This document shows, piece after piece, positions 9,291 through 63,590 of a stretch of DNA of 64,000 nt (positions within the stretch are counted from its first letter, which is position 1; each line of letters starts with the position of its first letter). Below the pieces are notes generated by a model that was not told the origin of the DNA, did not search any database, and saw only the letters and a program-made list of their open reading frames with translations. Source of the DNA: Cymbomonas tetramitiformis (lineage: Eukaryota > Chlorophyta > Pyramimonadophyceae > Pyramimonadales > Pyramimonadaceae); assembly GCA_001247695.2 (NCBI GenBank), contig LGRX02027793.1, forward strand, positions 1 to 64,000, in the 5' to 3' direction. The translations under genes and the position numbers were made by a program.

Positions 9291-9299
9291 TGCGAATTT

Positions 9300-12167: not shown

Positions 12168-12629
12168 TTAGCACTCCTGCGAGGCTGGGTTCTCAGACTC
12201 AAAGGAAACGGATAGTGACGGAGCCGGAATTTGATTGGCACCGACATGGATGGGCTCTGATGGGGCCCAGGAAACTACCTGGATCGGTCCATCGAATCCG
12301 GGTTGGGCCTGGCTTTGTTGTTGACACTGATCTGAGAAGATTGGGTTGCATATGACCTCATTGACGTTGCTTGCCTCATCTTCCCGTTGGGCTGCTTCAT
12401 TGTGCTGCACGATGCTGGCTGAATTATTCTGACTGAGCTTCTTGAGTATCCGTATGATCTTATGTTTCAGTTCAACAAAGGCTGGTAGGAAAATCGGTAC
12501 GACGAGAGTCATGGCATAGGTGAGAAGCACGATCTGCAACAATAAGATAGCAAGACCAACCGCGAATCCACTAGCTCCATCGGATAGCTTGAAGCCCACC
12601 AGCACCATTTGCACAATAAATTGGTTGAG
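12168..12629 (-). CDS. Giant gene, terminal exon
   Basis: Acceptor ggtgcag|CTCAACC at 12629, phase 0; 462 nt including the stop TAA at 12168-12170. It encodes a membrane stretch (QFIVQMVLVGFKL, then GLAILLLQIVLLTYAMTLVV), a basic juxtamembrane segment (ELKHKIIRILKKL) and a polar cytoplasmic-type tail rich in Gln, Ser, Glu and Pro ending ENPASQEC. It joins in phase to the exon ending at 13994. Confidence 0.75.
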   Translation of the reverse strand, partial: LNQFIVQMVLVGFKLSDGASGFAVGLAILLLQIVLLTYAMTLVVPIFLPAFVELKHKIIRILKKLSQNNSASIVQHNEAAQREDEASNVNEVICNPIFSDQCQQQSQAQPGFDGPIQVVSWAPSEPIHVGANQIPAPSLSVSFESENPASQEC

Positions 12630-13193
12630 CTGCACCACACCAAAATCGCCACTGATTCATTTACACGCTTCATATCCTACCATAAGGACTCTACTACGAG
12701 CCCTACACTCTCACATTACCTATCTCTACTACAATAAGAACACCAACTTCATCGTGCCTGCATGGCTGGAAAGGTCTAGCAACACGATCAGAGGTGGATA
12801 AACAACTAAAAATACTCCTTTGGAGAATTCCCAAAGGGCACAAAACCTAAAATTGAGCGCGAATGAGCAACGGGTACGCAGTGTGCTTAACTTGGGTATG
12901 TTTTCACCTCCCCACAATTGGTATGCAAGAGAAAGGGCCTTTCTCGATGACTACGAGAGGACAATTAGATTTCGGAACAAGTCTGGATATTCTCGAGGAC
13001 ATCTGCGACAAGGCATTTTTTTGGTTATAGCACAAGCAGATACATTCTTGATGACCGGGATGGTGGGGGCCTCGTGGTGGCTAGGTCGCAACAAGTAGTG
13101 AAGCGTTATATGATCGTGCATCACAAGTGCGCTGCATGTACACCGATACTTAGCACTTTGAGATTAGGCAACGGAAAGTAAATACAGACAATA

Positions 13194-13796
13194 GAGAGGT
13201 TCCGATTTTCGATTGCAGGTTACGGATTGCAAATTAGTGTCATCGTCATTGTGACGTTCCCGTAATCCGGAATCGGGTAACTCGGAACGCATGTGAAATG
13301 CGAAATTGATTCCGAAATCTGTCCAGGCCGCATTCCCAATTAGTTAAGGATGTCATCGTCGATCGAGCGATGCATTGAAATATTATTCCGACGTGGCGGG
13401 CTGCGATGCTCGCATTTCTGAGTGTTGTGCTGTTGCTTGCTCGCTCTTCGCTCGCTCTTCGCCGCTTTTCGCGGTCTTGGCGCAGTGGTATACGATACGC
13501 GGCTGCAGTAACAACGCATGTGACACAACACGTAAATCAAATTGACCGCTAGATTATAAGAATCTGTAGCATATTCCAAATCTATGATTTCGATGCCGAA
13601 ATGAACCTTAGCTTGTAACTTGTAATCGGTGTCCCGAACTACGAAAGAATTAACACTGGCATCCCGAAGTTTGGGATGTCGTAACTTGTAATCCGTTTTC
13701 CGGATTACAAGTTAAGGTCATCGATGTCATGCAAAAAAGGGAATCTATGACCTTAACTTGTAATCCGTAACCTGTAATCGAAAATCGGAACCTCTC
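13194..13796. mobile_element. MITE-like element with about 39-bp terminal inverted repeats
   Basis: The left end gagaggttccgattttcg and the right end cgaaaatcggaacctctc are perfect complements. The match continues inward with one or two differences through the ggttacggatt block. The 603-bp interior has no coding capacity and holds a strong hairpin (taacttgtaatccg, loop ttttc, complement) at about 13682-13714. Flanking TA-like bases hint at a 2-3-bp target duplication. It lies in the intron between the last two exons of the giant gene. Confidence 0.75.
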
Positions 13797-13993
13797 TTAT
13801 AGAGATGCGCCATGCGTTACATCAGAGAGTAGTTAGATCTTAGTCAGAGCTCGTCACGGGGCCATGCATCATTTCCATACTCTGCTCTGATTGGTCGGAT
13901 CACGGGGCAAAAAGTCCATCTCAGTGTAGCCACGTGATATGGAGAATAGTGAAGGCGGGATGAGATGGTGGACACAGGGTCACCGTGTCTCAC

Positions 13994-14173
13994 CAGGATA
14001 CAAAGAGCAAGATCGTCCATGGAATCTTCCTTATACGGGGAGTAGCGCTGATGCAGGCTAAGGGCGAGGACCGAGATGAGCACCGCGAAAACCAGTGCCG
14101 CGTTCTCCCCGGCTATCATTCTCACCAGCACGACTATCCCGGTTTGCAGCAGCCGCCGAATAATTTCCACAGT
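13994..14173 (-). CDS. Giant gene, membrane-span exon
   Basis: 180 nt, phase 0 on both sides: acceptor ctcgtgcag|ACTGTG, donor ATCCTG|gtgaga. Encodes EIIRRLLQTGIVVLVRM, a second hydrophobic helix (AALVFAVLISVLALSLHQ) and SPYKEDSMDDLALCIL. Upstream (14260-14340) the minus strand has a coding-like run with FFFIWSLEKQF that may be one further exon; its boundaries could not be fixed. Confidence 0.7.
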
Positions 14174-14488
14174 CTGCACGAGCAAACCCCGTTGTGAAGT
14201 GCACGAACTACCCTGAGCGCGTGAAGTAACAAGGGTAAACATAGATGCCAGATCAAGGAATTGTTTCTCCAAGGACCAGATGAAAAAAAAGTTCAAGTCG
14301 ATACTTGGACCCGTTGACCGCTTAGTGTGGAGTGATGGTGCCGTAGTTGCATCAACTGGATATCTCATCGAGTTTTTCTGTAGGTACTCGCTGGCTGGAT
14401 TTTCAAGTGAGCACGTTCCTAGTCTACGAACTAAACGCCGAATCTGAATTTTGTTTCAAGCACCTCTTGCATAAACAATGCCTTTGGT

Positions 14489-14745
14489 TTGCATATGCGA
14501 GCCAAGGTTGCGGTCATCACCGAGGTTCAGCAGCGGAACTACAAGCAACTGCCTCCTGGTTCCTTTGACGTGATCTGGGCGACTCCTCCTTGCAATGAGT
14601 ACAGTCAAGCCAACAGCACTGGCGGATGCCAGCTACACACGGCCAGCAGACCTACGCTTGTGTACGACGCACATTGCAGATCCTAGACTATCTGAATTCC
14701 GGACACTGGTTTATGGAGAACCCGATAGGAGAGGTTTCCTTTTGC
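14489..14745 (+). pseudogene. DNA methyltransferase-like fragment (frameshifted)
   Basis: The plus strand encodes PGSFDVIWATPPCNEYSQA, then in a shifted frame TLQILDYLNSGHWFMENPIG. The order 'FDVIWA.PPC.EYS' followed by 'W..ENP.G' matches the catalytic PC loop and ENP-type motif of C5 cytosine methyltransferase-like proteins found in phages, giant viruses and protists. The N-terminal AdoMet-binding part and the C-terminal target-recognition part are missing, and one frameshift lies near 14645. It sits antisense in an intron of the giant gene. Confidence 0.55.
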
Positions 14746-15397
14746 TTGGTTTTGAACAGTAGTGCATTCATGTTGTAATTACTGCACTAGTATAAGCAAA
14801 CCTACGCGCGTGGAGAGACCTGTATGCATGTGCGTCGATGTAAACTGTAAAATTGTTCCAGAGACTATTTCTGATCCAAACACATTGAGATACAGAAACT
14901 TGTTGAGCTGGTGATGACTGTTTCATGACCAGGGATCAGAAGTTTTACACTGAAGGGGATTTACCACAACTCTCTTACGGCTGAACTAATAAAAGTAGAT
15001 GTCTTGCGCTCCTGTCTGTGCTCCCCAATGCCTTACATCGACATGCTAACCCTGCACTTGCCCCTAAGCCTCAAAGTCCGAGAATACCCTACATAGCTAG
15101 TAGTCCGTGTCCAAGGATTCCCATCCCGCATGCCCTCGCACCTGCCACCAATAATAGGCGTCCTCGAAGGGGTCCCAAAGTGGGCCAAGTGCCTGCGGCA
15201 AGCATCCGCACCACAGTCATCCAATGCCTGGTCATCCACAAGTTTTGTCGGTGGCTGAGAATTGTATGCACGCCCCTTACCAACTTGCAGTACTGACGGC
15301 TGGATCGGCGGGGGGGGGGGATTGACTATTTTGACATTTGATATAGACTATTTGATTGCTGCCAAGCAGCGGGGCATCTCAGGATCGCCATCCTCAC
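14746..15397. other. Intron sequence, nothing recognised
   Basis: Part of the intron below exon 15398-15887. A G-run occurs at 15309-15320. Short open frames overlap on both strands but none has domain or splice support. Confidence 0.4.
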
Positions 15398-15887: not shown

Positions 15888-15924
15888 CTGCATGCCCCCA
15901 ACACATGGAAGGGTAGAGGCTCAC

Positions 15925-16350
15925 ACTGCTGCCTCGCATTGATGGAGGGGAGTTAGATGCTCACACCGCTGCCTCGCATTGATGGAGGGGCGGGGCTAGA
16001 TGCTCACACTGCTGCCTTGCATTGATGGAGGGGTGGGGCTAGATGCTCACACTGCTGCCTCGCATTGATGGAGCAGGGTGGGGGTAGATGCTCACACCGC
16101 TGCCTCGCATGATGGAGCGTTGGGGTGTAGATGCTCACACTGCTGCCTCGCAATGATGGAGGGGGGGGGTGGATGCTCACACAGCTGTCTCGCATTGATG
16201 GAGAGGGGTGGGGGTAGATGCTCACACTGCCTCGCATAGATGGAGGATTGGGGTGTAGATGCTCATACTGCTGCCTCGCATTGATGGAGCGGGGTGGGGG
16301 TAGATGCTCACACTGCTGCCTCGCATTGATGGAGGGGTGCACCGAATTGG
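15925..16350. repeat. Intronic minisatellite, about 57-bp unit, about 7.5 copies
   Basis: Units contain gatgctcacactgctgcctc and gcattgatggagggg with length variation in the G-rich linker. The array starts about 40 bp upstream (in gene direction) of the acceptor at 15887, so it lies against the 3' splice site. Confidence 0.85.
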
Positions 16351-17613: not shown

Positions 17614-17696
17614 CTGCGGATTTAGCCGCCACAAAACCTAGGTGAGTCGTACCTTTGGCAGCCAGCGGGGGAAATATGCCACCGAGTATGTTGGAA

Positions 17697-18030: not shown

Positions 18031-19077
18031 CAGTGTCATGCCGCCGCACATGACCCCTTCGGTGTAAGCATCAGAGTCGCACAGCGCTAGCTTCTCCACG
18101 CTGGCAATACCGCTGCCCGTGCGCGCATTGTTGCGCCCTCCAATCGCGCACTCGTCCTCATCCGCGTGGTTATCATCGGCGACGGCATCCTCCTCCTCCT
18201 CCACAGAGCTGCAGGCGTCCTTCACCCCACAGTCATACAGGCGGTCCAGAAAGCATTGCGTGGGGTCCTCGTGTCGCTGGCAGTACCGCGCGTTGGGCGC
18301 AAGCCAGTGCCCCGGGCACACCACGTATGTATCACCCCCGGGGCAGGTGACGCCCTCGGTGCACTTCAAGCAGGCGCTATCGTTGGAGAAGCTAATGTGA
18401 TTTGCTTCGCAGAGCATGCACTTCTGGGACCTTGATGAGTACCCGTCCACAGGGTACTCTCCCGGCACGCAGTAGCGGAGCGGTACCGCAGTGTCGCTAG
18501 AGCTCACCTCCTCCTCCACGTCAAGCTCAGTGGTGACATGCAGGAGGCAGATATCCCCTGGCATACCCACCAGCTGCAGGTCGTGGCGGAATACGGCGCT
18601 GCCATTGACAACCCGCTGCTGGAAACCGTCACCAGTGAACGTGCATGGCGACCCAGCGCTATTCAGCAGCTTCACCGTCAAGTCTGCGTTTGTTACCACC
18701 TCCTCGTTTGCGTCCGTCACCTCCACCTCAATGCCGTGCACGAGGTCATACCCCCCCGCCTCCTCCGCCTGGGTCTCCGCCACCCGCAGCCCGGTGGCCC
18801 GGGAGGCCCAGCCTGAGGGAGAGTCATACCCCGCGGTATTGCCTGCAGATGCCACGTCCTCCGTGCAGCTGAGGCACTCCGGGGGCTCTGGCGACACCGT
18901 CAAATTATCTGGGTCCCAGAAGATGATGGAGCCTCCCCCCAGGGCGGAGTTCTGCTCGTACTGCAGGTTTGCCAGCTGCGCCGCCGGCGCCGGGTGGCTC
19001 TCGGTCAGGCGCTCGCGCATGTAGAATACCGCACCCTCCCCGAGGGCGTTGTTGTTCAAGAACCGGCTGTCACGTAT
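18031..19077 (-). CDS. Giant gene, large exon: last beta-helix coils plus Cys-rich region
   Basis: 1047 nt (349 codons), phase 0 on both sides: acceptor cgtggcag|ATACGT, donor ACACTG|gtggga. Opens with beta-helix-type coils (IRDSRFLNNNALGEGAVFY, YEQNSALGGGSIIFW), then an immunoglobulin/Big-like segment (GGYDLVHGIEVEVTDANEE, DLTVKLLNSAGSPC), then the Cys-rich array: VPLRYCVPGEYPVDGYSS, KCMLCEANHISFSN, CLKCTEGVTCPGGD, VVCPGHWLAPNARYC. An Asp/Glu-rich insert (VEEEEDAVADDNHADEDE) and CDSDAYTEGVMCGG follow. Cysteines occur in C..C and C....C spacing as in GCC2/GCC3 (ephrin-receptor-like) modules. It joins at phase 0 to the exon ending at 31128 across an intron that holds the nested retroelements. 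Confidence 0.8.
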
Positions 19078-19349: not shown

Positions 19350-20006
19350 ATTTCTCTTTTGCACGGATCCTCATTTGCCAAAGGCAGGCACTGCAATACA
19401 TTTCATTCAAAAGATTTTGTAAAGTGTTTAAAATGCATTTTGTGCTTTTTACATGCTTTCTAAATTCAGAGTTTTGATGAAATCTCCAGGCTGACTGCAA
19501 GTCACCAAAAGGAAAGAGTCTCTGGGTCGGGAGCGGTGGGAAGAGCAACAGGAACAGAGCTGAACAGTCGTGTCGGTTCGGGCTACTTGTACACATCCTG
19601 TTCTGTGTCACGGACCAAACATCGTGCATGTGTCATCTGTCATAACTCAAGCTTCTGACCACTGTCGTTCTCACCAGTGAGAATTGCAGTGGCCCCAGTT
19701 ACACAAGTCTGCCTGTGTCGTCTGTCATCAGCTCGACTGCAGTCGGAGTCACGGCTGCCTGTGATAATTGGTAGCAACGGATCTCTAAAGTCTGAAACCA
19801 CCAAAATTACATTGCACTCCAACTTGAACATTTCTCTTTTGCACGGATCCTCATTTGCCATGTCCCAAAGATCAAAGAGGCACACACGATTTACTGAAAA
19901 TCTACTGTGAACAAGTTAACCAAGCAAAGTAGGAGTCCATGTCCTTGTCCCTCACAGCTGTCGGATCGATGTAGTGCTGTACTGCTGAGGACTGCTGTGA
20001 CCATTC
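19350..20006 (-). mobile_element. Detached 3' end of YR copy 2
   Basis: On the minus strand, 20006 to about 19905 encodes the end of the recombinase including the nucleophile context QHYIDPT and a stop; then B1 (near 19830-19860), A2 (about 19830-19540) and the spacer with B2 ending at 19350 follow. Identity with the copy 1 terminal region (24937-25320) is high but not perfect. Confidence 0.8.
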
Positions 20007-20169
20007 TGTTTAAATCGGAGTGCAACAGAGTTTTAGTGGTTTCAGAATTACAGAATCCGTGACTCATGCTGCAGTAGAGCTGAATGACACATGTAGCTCC
20101 GTGACACAAACAGGATGTACAAGTAGCCACGAACCGTCGTGCCTGTTCAGCTCTGTTCCTTTTGCTCTT
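20007..20169 (+). repeat. A1 terminal repeat of copy 1
   Basis: Direct repeat partner of 24966-25128; only one difference was noticed (gtcgtgcc versus gtcatgcc near the end). It begins immediately after copy 2 sequence, defining the 5' end of copy 1. Confidence 0.85.
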
Positions 20170-20422
20170 GCAAACAGGAACTTCACGGGTACCTAAAGTA
20201 CTCTGTGAGGCACACTGCAAATTGATTTTGTACTTTTCCTTCACCTGTTTCATTGGTAAACAGAAGAGTAGGTAGTGACTAAACTACTGGCTGTGAACGA
20301 GGATTCGACGGCAACGGGAGCCTCATCGGTGAAACGACGGGACGTCAGCTCGGCTTCAAAAATCGACAGCCTGCTGCTGCTTTTGACCGTCTTCAACTGT
20401 TACTCCCTTTGAGGGTAAGGAA

Positions 20423-21418
20423 ATGTCTGGAGATTCAAAGTCGAAGAAGGATCTGGAGGATTTCCCTCCCCTCCCGGGGAAGCCTAGCAACGAGCAGGCT
20501 TCCCCTCCCCCTACTACTCAGGATTTGTTGATGCAACAAGTTCTGGTGCTGCAAAAACAGCAAGGGGCCATCTTAGAGATGCAGAGGCAGCAGACGGAGG
20601 AGCATCGTCTGTTGCGTGATGAGCTTCAACGGCAATCGGAGATCAACGTTGCGTTGGAGGCAAAGATCGCGGCGAAGTCAGGATCATTGGACTCGGACGG
20701 TGCTGCAAAAAGTGCGGAGCAGCTCCTGGAGAGGAGAAAGAAGCTGGCGTACGTGCCAGAAGCTTCTGGCAATCCTTTCCCGCCACGGCCGGCTACGTTG
20801 ACATCGAGGATGCCTCAGCTGTACGACCTGCACGGAAGCAAAACGTACGACGCTCTTTCCAAGAAATCTAACTCTTCAATGAGGTACGAGTGCTTGGTGC
20901 TGGCTCCGGCCTTGTCGTACCTGCATGACGTTGTTTGTGAGTGCAACGACACGTTGGACGTGGCGGACGACGGCGATTTGTCGTACGAAAGCTTGCAAAA
21001 TCGTTTTCACGCAGTCTCTAACTCGGTTCACGGTGTGTACGCAATGTTGTGCAACCGGTGGACAATGCTAGAACTGCGTGGACAGCTGGAACAGGAGCCG
21101 GGGTCTTCGCAGCGTGGTGGTGCTGATGCTTTACGTGCAAAATTGCAGTTCGTGGAGGACAGGGTGTACCAGGCTGCGGACGGACTGGTGGCCGATGAGG
21201 TGTTGCAGCAATGGCTGAACGACTTCGACAAAAATCGTGGTAAGGCGGTGCTGAGTACGACGGCTAAAAATGCGGCTAACGCTGATTCGCGGGGTTCAAA
21301 AGAAGATCGGGATCGGCGTTGGCGAGAGTGGAAGAAGCACGATGAGGACAAGGACGGCAAGAAGACAAATGGTAAAGGCGGTAAGGGCCGGGGCGCTAAG
21401 CCCGCGGCCGATGCGTGA
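20423..21418 (+). CDS. Copy 1 ORF1, gag-like
   Basis: 331 codons. The N-terminus has LEDFPPLPGKP, conserved in copies 2 and 3. Residues 35-85 are Gln/Glu-rich and heptad-like (LQKQQGAILEMQ, LLRDELQRQSE), predicting a coiled coil. The middle is a conserved globular region (KLAYVPEASGNPFPPRP, RMPQLYDLHGSKTYDALSKK, CNRWTMLELRGQLEQEP, AKLQFVEDRVYQAADGLV). The C-terminus is strongly basic (KKTNGKGGKGRGAKP). By position and layout this is the nucleic-acid-binding structural protein of the element. Its TGA (21416-21418) overlaps the ATG of ORF2. Confidence 0.8.
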   Translation: MSGDSKSKKDLEDFPPLPGKPSNEQASPPPTTQDLLMQQVLVLQKQQGAILEMQRQQTEEHRLLRDELQRQSEINVALEAKIAAKSGSLDSDGAAKSAEQLLERRKKLAYVPEASGNPFPPRPATLTSRMPQLYDLHGSKTYDALSKKSNSSMRYECLVLAPALSYLHDVVCECNDTLDVADDGDLSYESLQNRFHAVSNSVHGVYAMLCNRWTMLELRGQLEQEPGSSQRGGADALRAKLQFVEDRVYQAADGLVADEVLQQWLNDFDKNRGKAVLSTTAKNAANADSRGSKEDRDRRWREWKKHDEDKDGKKTNGKGGKGRGAKPAADA

Positions 21419-23481
21419 TGTGTTTGCCGCCACCCCGGCCAGCGCAACAGCCCTCTCCGGGTGTTGGTCGGGGGAAACTCACCGTGCAGCATCAGGTGAG
21501 AAAGCAGAGGGGAGCTTGGCGTGCAGCAGGCGCCAGTGCAGAGGTGATGCAGTGGATTACACAAGGGGTGAAATTGAGGTGGAAGCGTTCGCCGCCACCT
21601 CGGTTCGATCACGGTGTGTCACTGATGGATGCGTCTTTGCAGCAGCAGGCGTGGCTGAACGCAGAGAAGGAGCGGCTGTTGGAGAACGGTGCATGGACGA
21701 GAGCAAAGAAGAGATCGCACGTGTCGAGAGCTTTTCTAGTGCCAAAACCCGGTATGAACAAGTGGAGGTTGGTTGTGGATTTCAGGTGGCTGAACCCGTG
21801 GTGTGTGAAAAATCGTGTAAAGATGGAGACGCTGAAAAAGTTGCGCAGGCTAGCGAAGCCGGGGGACTGGTGTTTCAGCTTCGACCTGCAAGACGGTTTT
21901 CACGCACTGGGGATTCACCCGGATTTTCAGCACTTCATGCAGTTCGACCTGCAGGGAGAGCTTTTTCAATGCTCGGCAGTTCCGTTTGGGTGGAGCGACG
22001 CTCCTCGTGTGTTTTGCAAGTTCGTACGTGTGATGGTGGAGGCGCTGCGTTCTCCACAGGCAGCAGAAGATCGCAGGGAGATCAAGAAGCTGCGGGACGG
22101 TTCCGCAGTACGACAGCGATGGTCAGTCCGTCGCAGAGCAGGTGGCGCTGGCGAGAACGCGATCAAGCACAGCGGGATGCGAGTGCTACCGTACATGGAC
22201 GATTTCTTGGTGCTGGTCGACTCTCAGAGAGAAGGCTTTTTGTGGCGAGAGAAGGTCCAGCAGGTGCTTCACCGGCTGGGCCTTCGGCGGAACGAGAAAA
22301 AGGGACAGTGGGATCCGGTTCAAGTTGTGGAACACCTCGGTTTGGAGGTGGATCTGCGGCTGGGGCAGTTTCGAGTTACGGAGCGGCGGGTGCACAAAAT
22401 TCACGTCAAGGCGAAGGAGATTCTGTGCGATGCTGCTAGAAACCGAAGGTGGATTCCGGCGAGGAGGCTGGCTGCCTTTACAGGGCTTTGCCAGTCAGTG
22501 TACCTGGCGGTGCCAGCTGCGAGGCTCTACTTGAGGGAGCTTTACTTCGTGTTGGCGGAGAAGAGCAGCTGGGGAGCAAAGGTAAAAATCTCTCGTGCAG
22601 CTCGGAAGGACTTAGAGTGGTGGGCCAGTTTGCCTGTGATGAGCAGATGGAACGGCCGCAAGATCTGGAGATCTCCGACGAGGGCAAAGCTGCACACAGA
22701 CGCGTCGATGATGGCTTGGGGAGGGGTGCTGAACCTCAAGTTCCCCGCGAGAGGTTTTTGGTCGGACGAGATGCGCAACTGGCACATCACGCACTTGGAG
22801 CTCGAGGCCGTGTACAAGACCGTCCAGGCGTTCCTGAACGAGTTGGAGAGCAAGGTGGTTCGTCTTTACTGCGACAACCAGGCAGTGGTGGCCATGCTCT
22901 CGCACTTCACCTCCAGGAACCCGGACTTGATGAGAAGAATGAGGAGACTCTGGTCACTTCTGGACCTGCACGACATCGAGCTGCAAGCTCGTTACATCCG
23001 CAGCGAGGCCAACGTGTGGGCCGACAACCTTTCTCGTTGCGAGGATCTCGACGATTGGAGGCTGAATCGCGAGTGGTTCGAGTGGGCCAACAAGCAGTGG
23101 GGGCCCTTCACGGTGGACCGGTTCGCTTCCGAGATCTCCACGCAGCTGCCTCGGTACTACGCTGCGTGGAAAGACCCGCGATGCGAAGGCGTGGACTCTC
23201 TGGCGTACGACTGGCGGGGGGAAAAAAATTGGGTGAACCCTCCGTGGGCGTTGTTGGACGAAGTGGCGCACAAGTTGCAGGAGGAGGGGGCTGCAGCCAC
23301 GGTGGTGGCCCCGTACTGGCCAGGTCAGTCCTGGTTCTGGGAGTTGGAGGCGATTGCGACCGAGGTAGTCATCATGCCGAGGCGCCGGGACCTCTTTACT
23401 CCGAGCAGGCTGGGAGGGTCCGAGCTGCTCGGGCCCTCGAAGTGGGACGCTGTGATGTTCTTCATCGAGGCCTCCCAGTGA
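21418..23481 (+). CDS. Copy 1 ORF2: reverse transcriptase / RNase H / methyltransferase-like
   Basis: 687 codons, intact. RT: RAFLVPKPGMNKWRLVVDF (residue about 105), DGFHALGIHPDFQHFM, SAVPFGWSDAPRVF, and the catalytic YMDDFLVLVDS at about residue 260. RNase H of DIRS type: LHTDASMMAWGGVL (about 425), HITHLELEAVYKTV, LYCDNQAVVAML, RSEANVWADNLSR. The C-terminal 130 residues contain VDRFASEIS, WVNPPWALLDEV and ATVVAPYWPGQSW. The NPPW motif and position match the adenine-methyltransferase-like domain described in DIRS-type elements. All visible catalytic residues are present, so this RT could be functional. The ATG overlaps the ORF1 stop (tgATG). Confidence 0.85.
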   Translation: MCLPPPRPAQQPSPGVGRGKLTVQHQVRKQRGAWRAAGASAEVMQWITQGVKLRWKRSPPPRFDHGVSLMDASLQQQAWLNAEKERLLENGAWTRAKKRSHVSRAFLVPKPGMNKWRLVVDFRWLNPWCVKNRVKMETLKKLRRLAKPGDWCFSFDLQDGFHALGIHPDFQHFMQFDLQGELFQCSAVPFGWSDAPRVFCKFVRVMVEALRSPQAAEDRREIKKLRDGSAVRQRWSVRRRAGGAGENAIKHSGMRVLPYMDDFLVLVDSQREGFLWREKVQQVLHRLGLRRNEKKGQWDPVQVVEHLGLEVDLRLGQFRVTERRVHKIHVKAKEILCDAARNRRWIPARRLAAFTGLCQSVYLAVPAARLYLRELYFVLAEKSSWGAKVKISRAARKDLEWWASLPVMSRWNGRKIWRSPTRAKLHTDASMMAWGGVLNLKFPARGFWSDEMRNWHITHLELEAVYKTVQAFLNELESKVVRLYCDNQAVVAMLSHFTSRNPDLMRRMRRLWSLLDLHDIELQARYIRSEANVWADNLSRCEDLDDWRLNREWFEWANKQWGPFTVDRFASEISTQLPRYYAAWKDPRCEGVDSLAYDWRGEKNWVNPPWALLDEVAHKLQEEGAAATVVAPYWPGQSWFWELEAIATEVVIMPRRRDLFTPSRLGGSELLGPSKWDAVMFFIEASQ

Positions 23482-24880: not shown

Positions 24881-24965
24881 AGAGCAGTTTTTTTTTTTTT
24901 GTGTGCCTCACAGATTTCTTCAAATCTCTGGTTTCATGGCAAATGAGGATTCGAGCAAAGAGAAA

Positions 24966-34873: not shown

Positions 34874-34879
34874 ACGCAC

Positions 34880-51726: not shown

Positions 51727-51810
51727 CGCACTGTTGCCACTGATTGTGTTATTCGTGATAATCAATGTGTTGTTCCCATCAATGTCCGTATATATAACTC
51801 CCCCATAGAG
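51727..51810 (-). CDS. Giant gene, beta-helix exon
   Basis: 84 nt, phase 0 both sides: catgacag|CTCTAT, AGTGCG|gtaagt. Encodes LYGGVIYTDIDGNNTLIITN then NTISGNSA, the most diverged of the four related exons. Confidence 0.8.
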
Positions 51811-53197: not shown

Positions 53198-53278
53198 GCA
53201 CGGTTATCATTGATGCTGCTATTCGTAATCGTCAACGTCCTGCCCTCAGAAATATAGGCAACTACCCCAGATTTGGAC
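53198..53278 (-). CDS. Giant gene, beta-helix exon
   Basis: 81 nt, phase 0 both sides: attacag|TCCAAA, CGTGCG|gtacgt. Encodes SKSGVVAYISEGRTLTITNS then SINDNRA. The outer boundary may be off by one base. Confidence 0.8.
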
Positions 53279-53929
53279 TGTAATGATAACCCAATAACAC
53301 ACATCACCATCCCCACGACCATCCCACGACATTCCTCTCACTCCCCAGCACCAAATCCTCCCCTCCACTATCCATACTTTGCGAACGATGATGCTAATCT
53401 GCAGCTTTACTATGAAGACCACGATTTGATAGATGTTGGAATTCCGTTAGGTAGTATCGCAAAATGCAAACAATATTTACCACTCGTAAACTTTATAGAC
53501 AATGCACTCGGCAAACCGCCGTGAATTTAGGCGCCATATCATTAGTTTACGATTTGGTCATGCTTTGTCGATGGTTGGTCGGCTGATCGCGGAGCAGGGC
53601 GAGGGTGAAAGTTCTGGTCTCATATCACTCACAGGTTCTCACTAACTGTCACAACACTCAGATCCCTCACGGTAACTGTCCAAATTTGCTCGTACTACTG
53701 CAACGTATCTGCATCGTTGCTTTCTTATTTGAGTCTACTGTTACAATCAGTGTTGTAGGGTTTCGGCCCCTTAATTTAGGGTGTCTCAGGGTTTCTTTTG
53801 CTCTTAACATCGTATTGCTGGCAGGCACACTGCATAGCATCTTGTCCAAATATGAGTGCAACGGCATGGTTGTGGTTTCAGTATCAGGGAACCGTGACTC
53901 CCGCAAGGCAATCAGTGCAAGGGCTTCAG

Positions 53930-55720
53930 TCACGTGGAGTTTGTGCTGGGGGTAGAGGGCTACAGGTGCAAGTTGGTGGCGGATGCGCAGGTTCGGATGA
54001 GGGCAACCCAGTTTATCATTTTCAACCCCTTGGGACAGCCCTTGGGGATTCTGGCTGTGACGTGGGTGGGCAAGCTCTCTCAAGACCAGGCTGTAGGGGC
54101 AGAGTGGTGGCGTGGGATGTGGGCTTGGTGGTGGAGGGGTGGCTCGAGTTGCGGAGGTGAGCCGGCTCCAGAGGCACAGCAGCAGTGCACCGGCAGGACA
54201 GCCGCAGAGGGGCTCAGGTGGCCCAGTGAGGCTCGGTGAGCAGCGGGGTGGTCCTGCGCGTGGGCTTGGTGGTGGTGATATGGTTTGCGCAGCTCGGGGG
54301 GCAGGGATGATTCGGATTCAGGCACAAGGCAGTAGTGCGCTGGCGGTGCAGATGCAGAGGGGCTCGGGATGCTCAGGGACGCTTAGGGGGTCCCATTCTT
54401 CACTTGTGAGCTCCGGAGAATCCGGATAAGTGTCCCGAAGTGTGTGCGGAATCCTTTGATCCCCGGCGTGGGTACATAGTGCAGTCTTCTGTGGCTACGG
54501 GGTGCCAAAGGAGTCGCAAGGATAAGCATTCACACACATGCTGGCGGTGCGGATGCAGATGGGCTGTCAGCGACTTCCCTTCCTTGATGGTGCCGAAGAA
54601 GATGTGGGGACTGTTCATCGAGTGTGTGATGGTTGCACTTCGGAGGATGCGGGTGGACACAGAGGACGTCGAGGCCTACAAGCTGCTCTTTTTGCTCTCG
54701 TGCCTGGTTCTTCAGCCGGTCCTGCAGGGGGTGAAGCAGGGTGTGGCCGAGGTCATTAAAGAGCGTTGCGCCCGCTTCCTGCGCGGTGAGTGGGAGGGGC
54801 TGCATGCGGAGGTGCCGGAGGATCGACGAGCTGTGGCCGAGGCGGATGAGGAACGAGTGCTCTGAGAAGCTGTGCGGTTGCTGAAGGCGGGGCAGCTGGC
54901 AAAGGCATGCGAAAGGCTGGAGCTGGCCAAGCTGGCACCGGCGACGGAGTAGACGTTGCTGAAGCCGGAGCGGTTGCATTCAGCAAAGACAGACAGGAGG
55001 CAAGATGCGGGGAAGGATCGCCGGCGGGAGCTTCGGGAGCAGGCGCTTTCGATGAGGCAATACGTAATCTGCTGCGGGCCTCCAGACCGGGCAGCTCTCA
55101 GTGGCGCTGGGAGCATATGTGGGCGGTCCATGTCTCCGGTGGGCGGGATGCACTGTTGGAGGTGTGCAACCATCTGGCGCGGTGGGTTGGGCCCCGGCAG
55201 GGGTTCGGGAGTGGTTGGCAGGCGATAGGTTACTGGCGTTGCTGAAGGACGACCTCAGCGTCAACGTCCGGCCGATTGAGTGTGGCGAAGTTCTCCAGAA
55301 GCTCGTGGCGAAGGTCATATGCAGGCAGCGTGTGAAGGCCTTCAGGGCTCAATTCTGTGGGCGGCGACAGGATGACGAGCATGGTGGACTGCGGGCGCAC
55401 CAGATTGGGCGGATCGACGAGAAGGGGTGGAGAGGTTGGTGCTGATGGACAGGGCGTGGGAGGACACGTTCAAGGAGACAGACTATGCCACGCAGGATGG
55501 ATTGGGTGGTGGGACTCAGGAATCTGAAGGAACGCAGCATGAGCAGTCTGGGCAGGCTTCCAGCGGGGCAGGCGTGATGACATCGAGGCTTTTGGAGAGC
55601 ATGGAGGATGTGCAGCGGGAGGCGGATCATTTGAGCAATGCATTGCTCACATGCAAGCATTTTCCTTTCGATGGAGACAGTTTAGATGGAGTCCATCTAA
55701 ACGGGATAACAAACAATTAA
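53930..55720 (+). pseudogene. Decayed LINE-like (non-LTR) retroelement
   Basis: 54440-54700 encodes FDPRRGYIVQSSVATGCQRS, KDKHSHTCWRCGCRWAVS (a Cys-rich finger) and a helical stretch. 55020-55245 has ASRPGSSQWRWEHMWAVHVS and RDALLEVCNHLARW. 55215-55440, in another frame, has GDRLLALLKDDLSVNVRPIE and CGEVLQKLVAKVICRQRVKA, which resembles the 'RPI...GE.L.RL..K' entry into the reverse transcriptase domain of non-LTR elements. The catalytic part is absent. At least three frame changes are seen. The family assignment is by motif memory and is moderate. Confidence 0.6.
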
Positions 55721-56145: not shown

Positions 56146-56223
56146 CCAGGCAGTGTTCCCGGTAATGTTGCCTTCGCTGATTAACACATCGCCGCTGGAG
56201 TCTATGTAGGCAAACCCTCCATC
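56146..56223 (-). CDS. Giant gene, beta-helix array exon 8
   Basis: 78 nt, phase 0: tgtcacag|GATGGA, GCCTGG|gtgggt. Encodes DGGFAYIDSSGDVLISEGNI then TGNTAW. Confidence 0.75.
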
Positions 56224-56322: not shown

Positions 56323-56400
56323 ATCAGCAGTGTTCCCGATCATGTTGCATTCGCTGATGGACACATCGCCACTCTTGTCTATGTAGGCGACACCTCCACG
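56323..56400 (-). CDS. Giant gene, beta-helix array exon 7
   Basis: 78 nt, phase 0: gtgtcatag|CGTGGA, GCTGAT|gtgggt. Encodes RGGVAYIDKSGDVSISECNM then IGNTAD. Confidence 0.75.
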
Positions 56401-56589
56401 CTATGACACCATACCCCCATCCCCGTTCCCCAGCGGGTGATCAGTGCGCCTCTCTGCATTGGCGCCCACATACACGCCCACCCACCAATTCCCTCCTCCG
56501 CATCGGCTCACTAGCATCATGGCTGCACGTGATGGGCACTCAACGTGGCGCTTCAGCAGGCGCGAGCTTCACAAAGCACCACCCACCAC

Positions 56590-56667
56590 ATCTGCAGTGT
56601 TCCCAGTCATGGTGCATTCGCTGATGGACACATAGCCGTTGGAGTCTATGTAGGCCACACCTCCACG
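56590..56667 (-). CDS. Giant gene, beta-helix array exon 6
   Basis: 78 nt, phase 0: gcgtcgtag|CGTGGA, GCAGAT|gtggtg (an alternative donor three bases on would add Val). Encodes RGGVAYIDSNGYVSISECTM then TGNTAD. Confidence 0.75.
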
Positions 56668-56853: not shown

Positions 56854-56934
56854 CTTAGTTGCAGCGTTCCCGGTCATGTGGCATTCGCTGATGGACACAT
56901 CGCCGCTGGAGTCTATGAACGCCACACCTCCGCG
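56854..56934 (-). CDS. Giant gene, beta-helix array exon 5
   Basis: 81 nt, phase 0: tgtcgcag|CGCGGA, ACTAAG|gtgagt. Encodes RGGVAFIDSSGDVSISECHM then TGNAATK. It has the strongest donor of the array. Confidence 0.78.
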
Positions 56935-57129: not shown

Positions 57130-57210
57130 CTCAGCTGCAGTGTTCCCGGTCATGTTGCATTCGCTGATGGACACATTGCCACTGGAATATATGCAGGCCA
57201 CACCTCCGTC
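57130..57210 (-). CDS. Giant gene, beta-helix array exon 4
   Basis: 81 nt, phase 0: tgccacag|GACGGA, GCTGAG|gtgggt. Encodes DGGVACIYSSGNVSISECNM then TGNTAAE. It is the last exon before YR copy 3. Confidence 0.75.
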
Positions 57211-57724
57211 CTGTGGCACCATGCCCCCATCCCCGTGCCCTACCAGGTGATTAGTGCGCCTCTCTGCATTGGCGCCCCATACATGCCCACCAACCGATAC
57301 TCTCGTTCAAATCAGTTTCTGCTAACTATTGGAATCTCCAATGCCTGCTGATTAGTTTGGTGTAAAGTGTTTGAAAATGCATTTAGTGTTTTTTTGAATG
57401 CTTTTTAAATTCTAGTTTGATGAGATGTCAAGACTGTCTGCAAGTCACCAAAAGGAAAGAGTCTCTGGATTGGGAGCGGTGGGAAGAGCAAAATGAACAG
57501 AGCTGAACAGGTGTGTCACTTCGTGGCTACTTGTACGTCCTGTTTGTGTCATGGAGCTACATATGTCATGCGGCTCTACTGCAGCAGGAGTCGCAGATTC
57601 TGAAAGTCTGAAACCACAAAAATTCCGTTGCAATCCAATTTGAACTCTCTCTTTTGCGCGAATCCTCATTTGCCATGAAACCAGAGATGAAACTGTGAGA
57701 CACACAAAAGAAATCTGATCTCTG

Positions 57725-59100
57725 TCACTGAGACCATGTTAACCACTCGAAGTAGTAGTTCATGTCTGCGTCCCTCAGAGTTGTCAGGTCATTATAGTGC
57801 TGCACTGCAGAAGAGAACTGTGACCAGCCTCCAAAGAAACACACTTTCTCCATTGCAACACCTACAGCTCGAGCACACATCGTGGCACCCTTCCGAGTGC
57901 TGTGTGCAGAAAAGTGGCCGCCCTCCGGGGGTTTGCAATCCACCTCGCTGAGAGCCAGACCAATCCAGTCATTAGCAACTGAAGCCTTGACGATCTTCGG
58001 GTTCTCGAGTAGCAGCCAGTAGCCATCAGGTTGAGTGCTCGAAGACCTGCTCCAAGCTGCATCACGGTGCGCTTCCCAGTGCAACACCGGCTCTCTCAGC
58101 CGATAAACTCCTCTTCAGGGAATGCACAAGCGCCTCTTCACCAGGTGGTGCCATCGTCCTTTCCCCTTAAGGAGAACCACAGAGAGCTCATTGTCGCCAC
58201 ACTGAACGTGTTGTCGTGACAACGATGTCCCCAAGTCTGGCCTGCCGAAAGTCACAAAGGCAATGAGCACGTAGGTGAGGGCTCGCAACAATCGTGGCTC
58301 TTCAGCAGACTGCAGTGTCAGGTTCAGCGCTGCCTCGTGTGCACGTCCTACGTGTTTTATTGGCTGCCACGTCCTCTGGGTCTCGATATTTTCCTCCTGC
58401 ACCGCCAGCTCCGCCTGGATGGTTGCCATGCCTTTCACAGCTCGGGTCACAGCATGGCCCTTCGCTGGTCTAGGAAGCAGGTCCTCGTGGTAGTTGTTGA
58501 TTGCTGACAGGTACGGCTGCAAGGAAGCTAATTTGACGCCTCCGTCTCTCCGCATGGAGGCGATATAAAGCAACCCAATTGCCTCCGTCGCTGGCAACCA
58601 CGGCCGTTGGTGCTGTTCACAAAAATGAATGAAGCGCCGCGCCTTCGGCCCGTAATTGCCCAGCGTCGTGTCCAGCAGTGCTTTCTTCTGCATCTTCACT
58701 GCTAGCTCTGTGAGCCGGCACTGTCCCAACTCACCCCTCCACCGCTCACAGGGTGAGCGCGTGAGGTAGTTCTCTACTGCACCACCGTGCTTGTTCTCTT
58801 CGTAGTCGCCTCCGCGGTCGATGTTCTCGCTGTCCACGTCTGCTGCCTCGGCCGTCAGCTCCGACAAGTCCGCGCTGTCAATGATCTTGAAGTTTTCCTC
58901 AGATAGGTCAAGTGTCTCCTCGTCGCCGTCGTCGTACAGCACGTGCGCCTCACCGTTTTCGTTGAACTTCTGCACCACTCTCAGGTAGAAGCAGTCATCG
59001 TCCTTCCAGAACACCTCGATTTTTGAGCCCTCGGTCGCCTTGCTAGCCGTCGTACACATCGCCGATCTCTTGCGCACTTCAGCAGCGTAGTAGCTCACGG
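57725..59100 (-). pseudogene. Copy 3 ORF3: Tudor-like plus tyrosine recombinase, one nonsense codon
   Basis: Tudor-like module: SKIEVFWKDDDCFYLRVVQK and AHVLYDDGDEETLDLS. Recombinase: TLGNYGPKARRFIHFC, TFGRPDLGTSLSRQHV, KRRLCIP followed by a TGA where copy 1 has Trp (near 58115), then the same frame resumes to AHSTRKGATMC and FFGGWSQFSSAVQHYND, ending WLTWSQ. All visible catalytic residues (box I Arg, box II His and Arg, Tyr) are present, so a single base change separates this gene from an open frame. Confidence 0.8.
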
Positions 59101-61520
59101 GCAGGCCTCGATGAAGAACATCACAGCGTCCCACTTTAAGGCTCCGAGCAGCTCGAACCCTCCCAGCCTGCTCGGAGTGAACAGGTCTCTGCGTCTCGGC
59201 ATGATCACCACCTCGGTCGCCAGAGCTTCCAGGTCCCTGAATCAGGATTGGCGCGGCCAGTACGGAGTCACCACCGTCGCCGCAGCTCCTTCCTCCCGCA
59301 GCTTGTGCGCCACCTCGTCCAGCAATGCCCACGGGGGCTTCACCCAATTGTTCTCCCCCCCCCTAGTCGTACCCCAAAGAGTCCACGCCCTCGCATCGCA
59401 GGTCTCTCCACGCAGCGTAGTACCGTGGAAGCTGCGCGGAGATCTTGGAAGCGAACCGGTGCATCATGAACGGGCCCAGCATCTCGCAGGCCCACTCAAA
59501 CCAATTTCGATTAAGCCTCCAGTCGTCGAGGTCCTCGCAGCGAGAAAGGTTGTCGGCCCACACGTTGGCCTCGCTGCGAATGTACCGAGCTTGTAGCTCG
59601 ATGTCGTGAACAGAGTCTTCGCATCCTCCTAATCAAGTCCAGGTGTGCTATAGGACAACGTGCAATGTCATACGCGAGGTGACGTAATAGTGTCACACAT
59701 GTCTATAGTGTCATGCGCGCCTTGAATACGCATCCGGGGACCCCTGTCGTAAAGGGAAATCCCCCTCGTGGGAGTGCACAGTACCACTGTACTGTGCAAT
59801 AATGTGTCATACTGCAGTAGTGACACCTAGCACTGCATAATACTGCATGAGAAGTACCTGATAGGTCAATGGGACTTGACCATGCTGACTAGGATCAACT
59901 GAGAGTTGAGAGAATGGGCAAGTGCCACAAAACAGTTGAGTTTTCTTATGTGCTTTGAGCCGACAGTACTAATATCTGTATACTAATTCTTACTGCAAGT
60001 ATATGCATTAAGTTGGGACATAGTACCTAAAAGTGACATAGTTCACTAGACCTGTATAAGACATAATATAGAACCTTGTATTATATGTGTACCACAGTGT
60101 GCTATAAGTATGGAGTGTTACAGCCGACTCCTACACCAGGTTCCTGGAGGTGAAGTCTGGTTGTCGCAGTAGAGTCGGACGACCTTGATCTCCAGGTCCT
60201 TCAGGAACGCCTGCACGGTCTTGTACACGGCTTCCCGCTCCAGGTGTGTGATGTGCCAGTTGCGCATCTCATCCGGCCAGAAACCTCTCGCGGGGACTTG
60301 AGGTTCAGCATTCCTCCCCAGGCCATCATCTAAAAGTCCGTGCGCAGCTTCGTTCTCATCGGGGACCTCCAGATCTTGCGCCTGTTCCACCTCCTCATCA
60401 CAGGCAGTCTGGACCACCTCTCTAAGTCCCCTGGTGCTGCACGCAAGATTTTTACCTTTGCTCCCCAGCTTCCGCCAGCACGAAGTAGAGCTCCCGTAGG
60501 TAGAGTCTCGCTGCTGGTACTGCCAGGTACACCGATTGGCAGAGCCCCGTGAAAGACGCCAGTCTTCTTTCAGGAATCCACCTCCGATTTCTTGCTGCGT
60601 CGGACAGGAACCCCTTGTGTGAATTTTGTGCACCCGACGCTCCGTGACACAGAACTGTCCCAACTTCAGGTGTACCTCCAAGCCAAGGTGCTCCGCCACC
60701 TGCACTGGATCCCATTGGCCATTATTCTCGTTCCGTCGTAGGCCCAGCCGATGAAGCACGAGTTGAACTTTTTCTCGAGGCAGAAAGCCTTCTCGCTGAG
60801 ACTCGACGAGCACCAAAAAATAGTCCATGTACGGCAGCACCCGCATCCCGCTGAGACGGTTCGCGTCCTCGTCAGTGCCACCTGCTCTGCGACGGACTGA
60901 CCATCGCTGTTGTACCACGGAACCGTCCTGTAGCTTCTTGATCTCCCTGCGATCTTCTGCTGCTTGCGGTGAACGTAGCGCCTCCACCATCATGCACATG
61001 AACTTGCAGAACACCCGCAGTTGCAGTTCCACCCGAACGGGACCGCTGTGCATTGAAACAGCTCCCCTAGCAGGTCAAACTGCATGAACCGCTTAAAGTC
61101 CGGGTGGATTCCCAGTGCACGAACCCGTCCTGCAGGTCGAATCTGAAGCACCAGTCACCCGGCTTTGCCAGCCTGCGCAGCTTCTTCAGCGTCTCCATCT
61201 TCACATAATTTTTCGCACACCACTGGTTCAACCATCGGAAGTCCACCACCAGTCTCCACTTCTTCGTACCCAGTTTCGATACCAAAAAGGTGCGCGAAAC
61301 GTTCAATCTCCTCTTCGCTCTTGTCCACGCACCGTCCTCCAGCAGCCTCTCCTTCTCTGCGTCCAGCCACACCTGCTGTTGACGCGAAGCAGGTCAGTGA
61401 CACACCGTGGTCAAACGGAGGCAGAGACCTGCACGTCCACCTCAACTTCACGCCTTGAGTGATCCACTGCATCATTCCCGCGCACCATGCTCCCCTCCGC
61501 TGTCTCACCTGCTGCTGCAT
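59100..61520 (-). pseudogene. Copy 3 ORF2: RT / RNase H / methyltransferase-like, multiply broken
   Basis: RT: RTFLVSKLGTKKWRLVVDF, FDLQDGF, then LPYMDYFLVLVES, where the second catalytic Asp of YMDD has become Tyr. RNase H: the LYCDNQ motif is present (near 60160), but the domain is interrupted by the 492-bp solo LTR, and a deletion of about 17 bp follows. The distal part has NVWADNLSRCEDLDDWRLNR, HRFASKISAQLPRYYAAW and NPPW-like codons read as VKPPWALLDE. Several frameshifts. Confidence 0.78.
59644..60135. mobile_element. Solo LTR (492 bp) with 5-bp target duplication
   Basis: The insert begins TGTGCTATAG and ends ACTCCTACA. It is flanked on both sides by ccagg (59639-59643 and 60136-60140), and it interrupts the RNase H codons of copy 3 where copy 1 is continuous. 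TG...CA ends plus a 5-bp target duplication are the hallmark of an LTR-retrotransposon or retrovirus-like LTR left after recombination. No internal coding region. Orientation undetermined. Confidence 0.85.
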
Positions 61521-61599
61521 CGAGTGATGTTTCCTGACCAGTGCCCGGAGAGGGCTGTTGCACTGGTCAGGGTAGCGACATCGCTACATTATGATCGGC

Positions 61600-62471
61600 C
61601 GCCGGTTTCAAGGCCCCGGCCCTACCGCCTTTTTCCATTAGGTTTCTTGCTGTCCTTCTCACCATCTTACTTCTTACGCTCCTTCCACCCCGCGCGTCCG
61701 GCATTTGCCGCGTTCTTGGACGTCACTGCCATCAGTGCTTTGCCGCGGGCTTTTTGTAGCTCCTCCCCGCTCGGTGAAGAACCCGGTTCCTGCTCCAGCT
61801 GTCCGCGCAGTTCCAGCATTGTCCACCTGTTACACAACATTGCGCACACGCCGTGCACCGAGTTGGATCACTGCTTGAAAGCGTTGTTGTAGCTCGTCGT
61901 ACAACAGGCAGCCGGCCACCGCAGTGTCCAGCGTGTTGCTGCATTCAGCTACCATGTCGTGCAGTAAGTAAGACAGCGCCGGAGCCAAAACTAAGCACTC
62001 GTACTTCATTGAAGAGTTAGACTTCTCGGAGAGGGCGTCGTAAGTCTTGTTCCCGTGCAGATCGTACAGCTGCGGCATTCTCGTTGTCAACCTCGCCGGC
62101 CGCGGCGGGAACGGATTGACGGAGGCTGCTGGCACGTACGCCAGTTTCCTCCTTCTCTCCAGAAGTTGTTCAGCAGTTTTTGCCACGGTGTCCGGGTTCG
62201 ATGTCCCAGACTTCGCTGCAATCTTCGCTTCCAACGCAACGTTGATTTGTGATTGCTGTTGAAGCTCGTCACGCAGCAGGCGATGCTCCTCCGCCTGCTG
62301 CCTCTGCATTTCCAGCATCTCCCCTTGCTGCTTTTGCATCGCCAGAATTTGTTGCATCAGCACTTCCTGTGTAGACTGTGCTGCGGGGGAAGGGGAAGCC
62401 TGTCCGATGTCGGGCTTCTCCGGGAGGGGAGGGAAATCCTCTAGATCCTTGTTCATTGAACTTCCTGCCAT
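61600..62471 (-). pseudogene. Copy 3 ORF1, gag-like, frameshifted
   Basis: N-terminus MNKDLEDFPPLPEKPDIGQA, coiled coil (LAMQKQQGEMLEMQRQQAEE), KLAYVPAASVNPFPPRP, RMPQLYDLHGNKTYDALSEK. The frame is lost near 61865 and resumes as CNRWTMLELRGQLEQEP; part of the region after SGEE(L) is deleted relative to copy 1. The basic tail is recognisable to about 61600. Confidence 0.75.
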
Positions 62472-63048
62472 CTAGTCACTCACGAAGAAATCACATTGAA
62501 AACAACTCACACTGCTCTGCTGTCGTTGAGCTGTCGTTTGCCGATGTAAGATCTGTGAGATCTCCTGCTGTCGTCGATCGCCGTTGTACAACCTAGTGGT
62601 GTAGTCACTACCTACTCTGCTGTTTACAGGTGAAAGAAGTGAAGAAAATTTTACAAAATCTGATTTGTAGTGTGCCTCACAGAGTACCGCAGGTACCCGT
62701 GATGTTCCGTTTGCAAGAGCAAAAGGATCAGAGCTGAACAGGCGTGTCGCTTCATGGCTACTTGAACATCCTGATTGTGTCACGGAGCTACATGTGTCAT
62801 TTGGCTCTACTGCAACAGGAGTCGCGGATTCTGAAAATCTGAAACCAAAAAAATTCCGTTGCACTACAATTTGAACAGAATACTTTCTTGCAAATGCTTG
62901 CTGTGTGTTTGGTATGTCTTGCTCACCCTAGCAATAATTTGCAAATTACCCACTGCTGATCTCCAACATTGACTAGCATCATGGCTGCACTTTATGGGCA
63001 CTCAACGTGGCGCTCCAGCAAATGCGAGCTTCGCAAAGCGCCACCCAC

Positions 63049-63126
63049 CTCAGCTGTGTTCCCGGTCATGTTGCATTCGCTGATGCACACATCGCCACTG
63101 CTGTATGTGTACGCCACACCTCCGCC
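63049..63126 (-). CDS. Giant gene, beta-helix array exon 3
   Basis: 78 nt, phase 0: gttgcag|GGCGGA, GCTGAG|gtgggt. Encodes GGGVAYTYSSGDVCISECNM then TGNTAE. Confidence 0.75.
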
Positions 63127-63245
63127 CTGCAACACCATACGCCCATCAACGTGCCCAGCAGGTGATCAGTGCCTCTTTGCATTAGCGCCCACATAAATTT
63201 GCACCGACCGATACCCTCCTCCGCATCTGACAAAGCAGCACCCAC

Positions 63246-63323
63246 CTCAGCAGTGTTCCCGGTCATGGTGCATTCGCTGATGGACACATAGCTGCTGGAG
63301 TTTACGTAGGCCACACCTCCACG
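63246..63323 (-). CDS. Giant gene, beta-helix array exon 2
   Basis: 78 nt, phase 0: tcacag|CGTGGA, GCTGAG|gtgggt. Encodes RGGVAYVNSSSYVSISECTM then TGNTAE. Confidence 0.75.
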
Positions 63324-63509
63324 CTGTGACACCATACCCCCATCAAGGTGCCCCAGCAGGTGATCAGTGCACCCCTTTACATTTGCGCCCAAATGCATGC
63401 CCATCCAACGATACCTTCCTCCGCATTGGATCACTAGCATCCTGGCTGCACATGATGGGCATTCAACGTGGAGCTCCAGCAAGCGCGAGGTTCACAAAGA
63501 AGCAACCAC

Positions 63510-63590
63510 CTCAGCTGCACTGTTCCCAGTCATGGTGCATTCGTGGATGGACATATCGCTACTGTTGTATGTGTAGGCCACACCTCCACG
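63510..63590 (-). CDS. Giant gene, beta-helix array exon 1 (first in window)
   Basis: 81 nt, phase 0: cgtcgcag|CGTGGA, GCTGAG|gtggtt. Encodes RGGVAYTYNSSDMSIHECTM then TGNSAAE. Being phase 0 and lacking a start codon, it must be preceded by further exons outside the window. Confidence 0.75.

Follow-up and report, generated by a model that had tools for sequence, protein, structure and literature searches.

A candidate very large gene in Cymbomonas tetramitiformis with an array of exons that would each encode one beta-helix rung

Cymbomonas is a green alga that eats bacteria. The window analysed here comprises bases 1-64000 of contig C18659 (101,937 bp; nuclear) of Cymbomonas tetramitiformis, and its minus strand carries coding pieces scattered among retrotransposons and tandem repeats, which raises the question of whether these pieces belong to one gene. 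We consider it probable (approximately 0.85) that they form a single very large minus-strand nuclear gene of at least 75.4 kb that belongs to a set of 13 close genomic copies. This reading is supported by paralogous proteins that cross the 3ˊ junctions, by the exon order at two paralogous loci (C5020 and C22057), by conserved splice sites and by purifying selection. For the exon array and the second-type rung exons in the 5ˊ part (u and v in Table 1), gene order, splice signals and phase, rather than an annotated protein, point to the same gene. The original prediction of a single gene exceeding 51 kb, whose product has beta-helix, cysteine-rich and multi-span parts, is upheld by these lines of evidence and understates the size.

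Gene model in the window and beyond

The window model consists of 26 minus-strand exons between positions 63590 and 12168, which join into 5118 nt and encode 1705 amino acids in a single frame without an internal stop. Extended along the contig (87569-12168, minus strand), the model has 51 exons and 7155 nt encoding 2384 amino acids over 75,402 bp, with compatible phases and an open frame; the share of the gene located in the window is 51.4 kb. The 50 introns of the extended model have a median length of 190 nt, a mean of 1365 nt and a maximum of 12,050 nt. Two further candidate exons are present near 101 kb, and if these are part of the gene, its length may exceed 88 kb and reach the contig end. 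The published model, CYMTET_41756 (P0002), matches the 3ˊ part at 100% identity and spans only the last seven exons (c1 to c7) in the last 7 kb. According to the genome report, the annotation used Red masking and BRAKER2 (PMC10675990), and we infer that repeat masking explains the truncation.

A first chain was assembled from the minus strand by inspection and with a script, knowing the coordinates of the original prediction. It gave 25 exons in one open frame that match positions 63590, 57130, 39900, 34962, 34880, 32503, 32341, 31978, 31128, 19077, 16615, 15887 and 12168, with one exon start set at 53277 instead of 53278. The annotated paralog P0005 (1517 amino acids) aligns exon by exon from 40299 to 12195 (tblastn), and reveals an additional exon (37512-37432, exon x) and two shifted donors. 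Instead of the predicted phase 1 junction 39900/34962, the donor is a GC at 39891, unchanged in both paralogs in which the exon was found, and exon x lies between. Exon w5 does begin at 31978 as predicted, and the donor preceding it moves from 32341 to 32332, followed by GTCTTG in all three paralogs. We therefore rejected the junction at 39900/34962 and the donor at 32341, with which the paralogs disagree. The predicted junction 16615/15887 is present in the published model, and 11 of 15 relatives continue across it without a gap. Further upstream, the interval 57130-53278 is not one intron, since four more array exons (56934-56146) follow 57130, and 63590 is not the gene start, since the array continues upstream of the window. 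Phases fit throughout, and the 24 segments originally proposed become 26 in the window and 51 overall.

Continuity at each junction was judged as ungapped alignment over eight residues per side in 15 related predicted proteins. By this measure, each of the 13 junctions between w1 (40296) and c7 (12629) is continuous in at least one close annotated paralog. Those between w1 and w2, w2 and x, and x and w3 rest on P0005, the last also on P0006, and the 34880/32503 junction and the 12-kb intron 31128/19077 are bridged in nine and five of the 15 relatives, respectively. On this protein evidence, the 3ˊ 28 kb (40296-12168) reads as one gene. At the junctions of the 5ˊ part, only distant beta-helix repeats match (0 to 2 of 15 relatives, with 2-7 of 16 residues identical). 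Splice sites are conserved at three paralogous loci: among the sites located there, this holds for all 25 acceptors and for all 22 donors that could be assessed.

The exon array and its gene family

Among the 5ˊ exons are 32 copies of a unit of approximately 267 bp, formed by a 78-99-nt exon with phase 0 on both sides and its intron. Two of the eight window units replace CAG with TAG, a valid acceptor that would be a stop codon if read through. A rung profile was built from 16 one-rung window exons, and the top ranking of these training exons (30.6-56.1 bits) is consequently circular. The next match in the window is exon w5 (10.4 bits), and the best scores on the plus strand and in the reversed window are 5.0 and 8.5 bits. 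Beyond the window, the profile finds 25 further untrained copies of at least 20 bits, all on the minus strand, while the best plus-strand match among those listed scores 3.2 bits. The 25 exons upstream of the window comprise 24 of array type and one distinct exon (t0, 87569), which has a 68% counterpart at the equivalent position in the order in C5020; AG and GT occur in compatible phase for all 25. Upstream of the array, similar frames of 634 amino acids (minus strand) and 496 amino acids (plus strand) face each other in a large inverted repeat at contig positions 91038-94947.

Besides the window's own model, there are 15 relatives, seven at 78-82% and eight at 30-44% identity. The close paralogs P0003-P0009 (CYMTET_15009, _20138, _53813, _42174, _49343, _14258 and one EukProt model) are named 'hypothetical protein' at NCBI, and UniRef lists two as 'TRP C-terminal domain-containing' and one as 'Right handed beta helix'. 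They share with the window product this high identity over the common part and, in the loci read, the exon order and splice sites. A search of the alga's own genome with exon c1 yields 113 matches at E up to 0.001, of which 13, the window's own included, are at least 82% identical over nearly the full length. These matches are a large family, which is annotated in databases, but our literature searches found no published account of it.

The order of array, second exon type, beta-helix exons and cysteine-rich exon is kept in two of the three paralogous loci with enough sequence. Locus C5020 has a t0-like rung, the array, v-type rungs and w3 to w6, with the fetched stretch ending just inside c1, and C22057 has the array, v-type rungs, w1 to w6 and c1 to c5. 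Rung matches of at least 15 bits are confined to one strand in both (30 versus 0 and 15 versus 0). Sorted by eye, array exons number 32 here, about 24 in the C5020 stretch and 9 in C22057. The third locus, C24991, matches P0005 and carries the w exons. For C8169, the 7.8 kb that were fetched contain w6 and no rung match.

Two of the paralog models, P0007 and P0008, start with transposon gag/integrase-like sequence ahead of the beta-helix exons, and within the set P0007-P0009 there is either such a start or a stretch of about 40 foreign residues at the w6-c1 junction. These stretches are probably annotation artefacts that stem from the same kind of intron.

Several observations weigh against the single-gene reading. 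All of P0003-P0009 start at model residue 321 or later, and hence none includes the array, nor is there a Cymbomonas protein among the named proteins in the best 120 of 1621 matches covering the array and v exons. In the 27.8 kb fetched from C24991 upstream of w1, no array or v match reaches 15 bits, and C5020 yielded no w1, w2 or x exon, so family members differ. Upstream of the window, a script picked the best open option for each exon, and the absence of stops there is partly due to this choice. Weak donors (GTCTTG, GTCCGT and GC) are present. The ratio of nonsynonymous to synonymous substitution rates (dN/dS) exceeds 1 for w1 in both comparisons (26 codons) and is 0.77 for the eight window units (bootstrap 0.41-1.75), whose exon identity is 82.2% versus 81.6% (5ˊ flank) and 77.3% (3ˊ flank) for introns. 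Finally, the membrane part models poorly, with a mean predicted local distance difference test score (pLDDT) of 57 for P0002. If the pieces instead belonged to two or more genes, with w1-c7 (or c1-c7 as annotated) downstream of a separate gene or fragment carrying the array and v exons, this would account for a published model that begins at c1 and for P0005, which begins just before w1 at the locus devoid of an array. The v4-w1 junction is bridged uninformatively, by two of 15 homologous proteins with 5 and 7 of 16 residues identical. However, w1 begins at an acceptor in a chain of fitting phases, the exons of C5020 and C22057 likewise follow this order on one strand, and the tblastn matches listed place C-terminal matches at 12-19 kb only, with no second C-terminal region between the exon groups. 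Moreover, the annotated start of CYMTET_41756 sits upstream of the c1 acceptor in sequence that we read as intron, where five close paralogs run into w6 instead, and it was rejected as the gene start. Separate genes are thus unlikely.

We also doubt that the locus is a decaying pseudogene, open by chance or through recent origin, in which insertions stop expression. Such decay would fit the large insertions, the weak donors and exon c4, from which about 70 and about 40 residues are absent relative to P0005, both in frame (tblastn). It would also fit a dN/dS that is not clearly below 1 on the eight window units only, which are insufficient as proof of selection; this needed all 32 units (0.54, bootstrap 0.33-0.90). 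Yet the 51-exon model has no stop, even though its array exons were chosen open, and neutral simulation of the eight window units preserves all frames with AG and GT in only 1.0% of 20,000 runs. Indels in these exons are all 3 nt (one site, four units), and dN/dS is 0.22-0.40 for c1 against all seven fetched loci; a pseudogene is quite improbable. For the w and x exons, dN/dS falls below 1 in 16 of 18 comparisons, both exceptions being w1. A misjoining of paralogous pieces is conceivable in a genome that its authors describe as 914 Mb in size, tetraploid and 68% interspersed repeats, with a hybrid assembly that is still fragmented (PMC10675990). The first 191 residues of P0002 and P0004 are identical (19194-18622, including residues upstream of c1), followed by about 80% identity, which may reflect an allele, gene conversion or an assembly effect; the candidate P0004 contig, C7633 (31,465 bp), terminates 251 bases upstream of the copy of c1 that it carries. 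An assembly artefact is nevertheless very improbable, given that the same exon order occurs independently on two other contigs and that a retrotransposon (element 3) splits an array unit whose halves fit.

Insertions and repeats at the locus

Under the single-gene reading, the retrotransposons and minisatellites are located in introns, as are several shorter tandem arrays. The original prediction had assigned the whole repeat landscape to introns, whereas the satellites at 1-12 kb sit 3ˊ of the gene (0.6-2.6, 3.4-3.9 and 7.4-9.6 kb). In the satellite blocks at 7600-9300, a palindrome around CAATCGTATACGATTG is common to several different repeat units. A 37-bp minisatellite (37502-37615) spans the acceptor of exon x, creating tandem copies of that 3ˊ splice site sequence.

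Three insertions resemble DIRS/PAT tyrosine-recombinase retrotransposons, with reverse transcriptase and RNase H recognised in two of them and split direct repeats in all three; the repeats measure 163 bp in element 1 (99.4%), 296 bp in element 2 (95.6%) and 162 bp in element 3 (88.9%). Elements 1 and 2 match RVT_1 (7.2e-13 and 1.8e-13) and RNase H (2.3e-6 and 1.5e-6), and the scanned frame of element 3 gave no Pfam family. The integrase SAM-like domain is above cut-off only in element 2 (23.5 versus 22.3) and below it in elements 1 and 3. A difference from DIRS/PAT elements is a Tudor-like stretch ahead of the integrase part. This stretch matches PF21743 below cut-off (E 0.0002 and 0.027) in the integrase frames at 25258-26709 of element 2 and 58115-59362 of element 3, both on the minus strand, and the start of the P0007 model resembles it by eye.

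The w6-c1 intron measures 12,050 nt, or 1213 nt without elements 1 and 2, and the frame of element 2 continues across the joined flanks of element 1. The repeat identities agree with this nesting, suggesting that the inner element is the youngest. Removal of element 3 leaves a unit of 261 bp with a 183-nt intron, so exons u3 and u4 were neighbours before the insertion; the remaining six introns that separate array exons in the window measure 99-195 nt, three of them 186 nt. Between array exons of C5020 there is a copy that extends along the entire element 1 (82%), and C22057 carries element fragments within its own w6-c1 intron. No element copy was found in the fetched C24991 stretch. The single scanned frame of the unclassified repeat between u8 and v1 has no Pfam family above cut-off.

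Table 1. Exons of the gene model and inserted repeats in the window
Feature	Position	Strand	Basis
Array exon u1, one beta-helix rung, phase 0-0, first of eight in the window	63510..63590	-	AG/GT, open frame; profile 50.8 bits
Array exon u2	63246..63323	-	Open-frame model; profile match
Array exon u3	63049..63126	-	Open-frame model; profile match
Array exon u4	57130..57210	-	Model and profile; adjoins u3 once element 3 is removed
Array exon u5, absent from the originally predicted chain (57130 to 53278)	56854..56934	-	Model and profile
Array exon u6, acceptor TAG	56587..56667	-	Model and profile
Array exon u7, acceptor TAG	56323..56400	-	Model and profile
Array exon u8	56146..56223	-	Model and profile
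Second-type rung exon v1	53197..53277	-	GTACGT donor, phase 0-0; profile 40.0 bits
Rung exon v2	51727..51810	-	GTAAGT donor; profile 35.5 bits
Rung exon v3	46935..47012	-	GTGAGT donor; profile 41.0 bits
Rung exon v4	42714..42794	-	GTAAGT donor; profile 42.5 bits
Rung exon w1	40219..40296	-	85% identity to P0005 residues 25-51
Rung exon w2, GC donor	39891..39981	-	P0005; identical GC donor in C22057, C24991
Exon x, overlooked in the original prediction	37432..37512	-	P0005 residues 80-109, 87%; splice sites kept in C22057, C24991
Rung exon w3	34880..34962	-	P0005 tblastn, paralog junctions, conserved splice sites
Beta-helix exon w4	32332..32503	-	P0005 tblastn, paralog junctions, conserved splice sites
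Beta-helix exon w5	31554..31978	-	PF13229 E 5.9e-7 (open frame 31419-32015); paralog junctions, splice sites
Beta-helix exon w6	31128..31370	-	Paralog junctions, conserved splice sites
Exon c1: last rungs, immunoglobulin (Ig)-like domain, cysteine-rich domain	18031..19077	-	In P0002; dN/dS against 7 loci (see text)
Exon c2: end of cysteine-rich part, hydrophobic segment	17029..17613	-	In P0002; paralog junctions
Exon c3: hydrophobic segment	16615..16784	-	In P0002; paralog junctions
Exon c4: hydrophobic segment and loop	15398..15887	-	In P0002; paralog junctions
Exon c5	15142..15192	-	In P0002; paralog junctions
Exon c6: hydrophobic segment	13994..14173	-	In P0002; paralog junctions
Exon c7: last hydrophobic segments, tail, stop codon	12168..12629	-	In P0002; paralog junctions
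DIRS/PAT-like element 2, intron w6-c1, contains element 1, approximate ends	19350..30186	-	296-bp repeats 95.6%; RVT_1, RNase H, integrase SAM-like domain
DIRS/PAT-like element 1, inside element 2	20004..25320	+	163-bp split repeats 99.4%; RVT_1 7.2e-13
DIRS/PAT-like element 3, within one array unit	57317..62971	-	Joined flanks form 261-bp unit, 183-nt intron
Degenerate DIRS-type fragment, intron v3-v4, approximate ends	43842..45910	+	66-73% to elements 1-3; open frames
Unclassified degenerate repeat with open frames, intron u8-v1, approximate ends	53918..55720	+	Copy at 40836-41453, 76%
34-bp minisatellite, intron v2-v3	49988..51452	.	Tandem repeat
21-bp minisatellite, intron w2-x	38075..39694	.	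Tandem repeat
68-bp minisatellite, intron w3-w4	33189..34872	.	Tandem repeat
43-bp minisatellite, intron c3-c4	15911..16339	.	Tandem repeat

Predicted product and proposed growth of the helix

The product, whose prediction is drawn partly from a paralog, is predicted to form a right-handed beta-helix followed by an Ig-like domain, a cysteine-rich domain and about six membrane spans. Above curated cut-offs, it matches PF13229 (117.9 bits, cut-off 25.9) and PF02415 (67.3 bits, cut-off 20.6). The predicted fold of the paralog is close to chain G of 7akv, a complex of Vag8, which we take to be an autotransporter passenger. With its right-handed beta-helix and matches to both families, the product is similar to chlamydial polymorphic membrane proteins and autotransporter adhesins. 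However, unlike in the chlamydial proteins, the C-terminus has several hydrophobic helical segments and each rung is a separate exon, and the autotransporter barrel is absent from the 14 families that 16 members of this protein family matched at E up to 0.1. Several C-terminal hydrophobic segments, together with the UniRef names of two paralogs, recall TRP channel domain proteins (PF06011); this family matched one of 16 members (E 0.0017) and was not matched in P0002, the window's own product. Collagen and leucine-rich-repeat genes also have symmetric exons, one per structural repeat, whereas the unit repeated in this gene is a beta-helix rung, and whole retrotransposons interrupt the array. 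Judging from this architecture, our guess is that the protein probably resides in the cell membrane and exposes its helix to the exterior, acting as a receptor or adhesin. Since the alga eats bacteria, prey contact is one possibility.

Each array exon would add one rung to the beta-helix. Given the phase symmetry of the array units, the helix could become longer or shorter with the frame intact whenever a unit is duplicated or lost, while retrotransposons and minisatellites would land in introns and be spliced out. We tentatively suggest a solenoid that grows rung by rung through tandem duplication of a phase-symmetric exon and its intron, such that ectodomain length varies between paralogs and perhaps between strains. 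The result might be a length-variable receptor or adhesin whose array tolerates retrotransposons because the insertions fall in introns.

The mean intron length reported for core genes (CEGMA) of this alga in an older assembly is 297 bp (PMC5741210), compared with introns of up to 12 kb here and one of 17.7 kb in a paralog. Annotation on the repeat-masked genome captured no more than the final 7 kb of the gene, so repeat-rich algae may have larger genes and longer proteins than published models suggest. A phase-symmetric array of one-rung exons would offer a simple route for beta-helix growth in an alga that feeds on bacteria.

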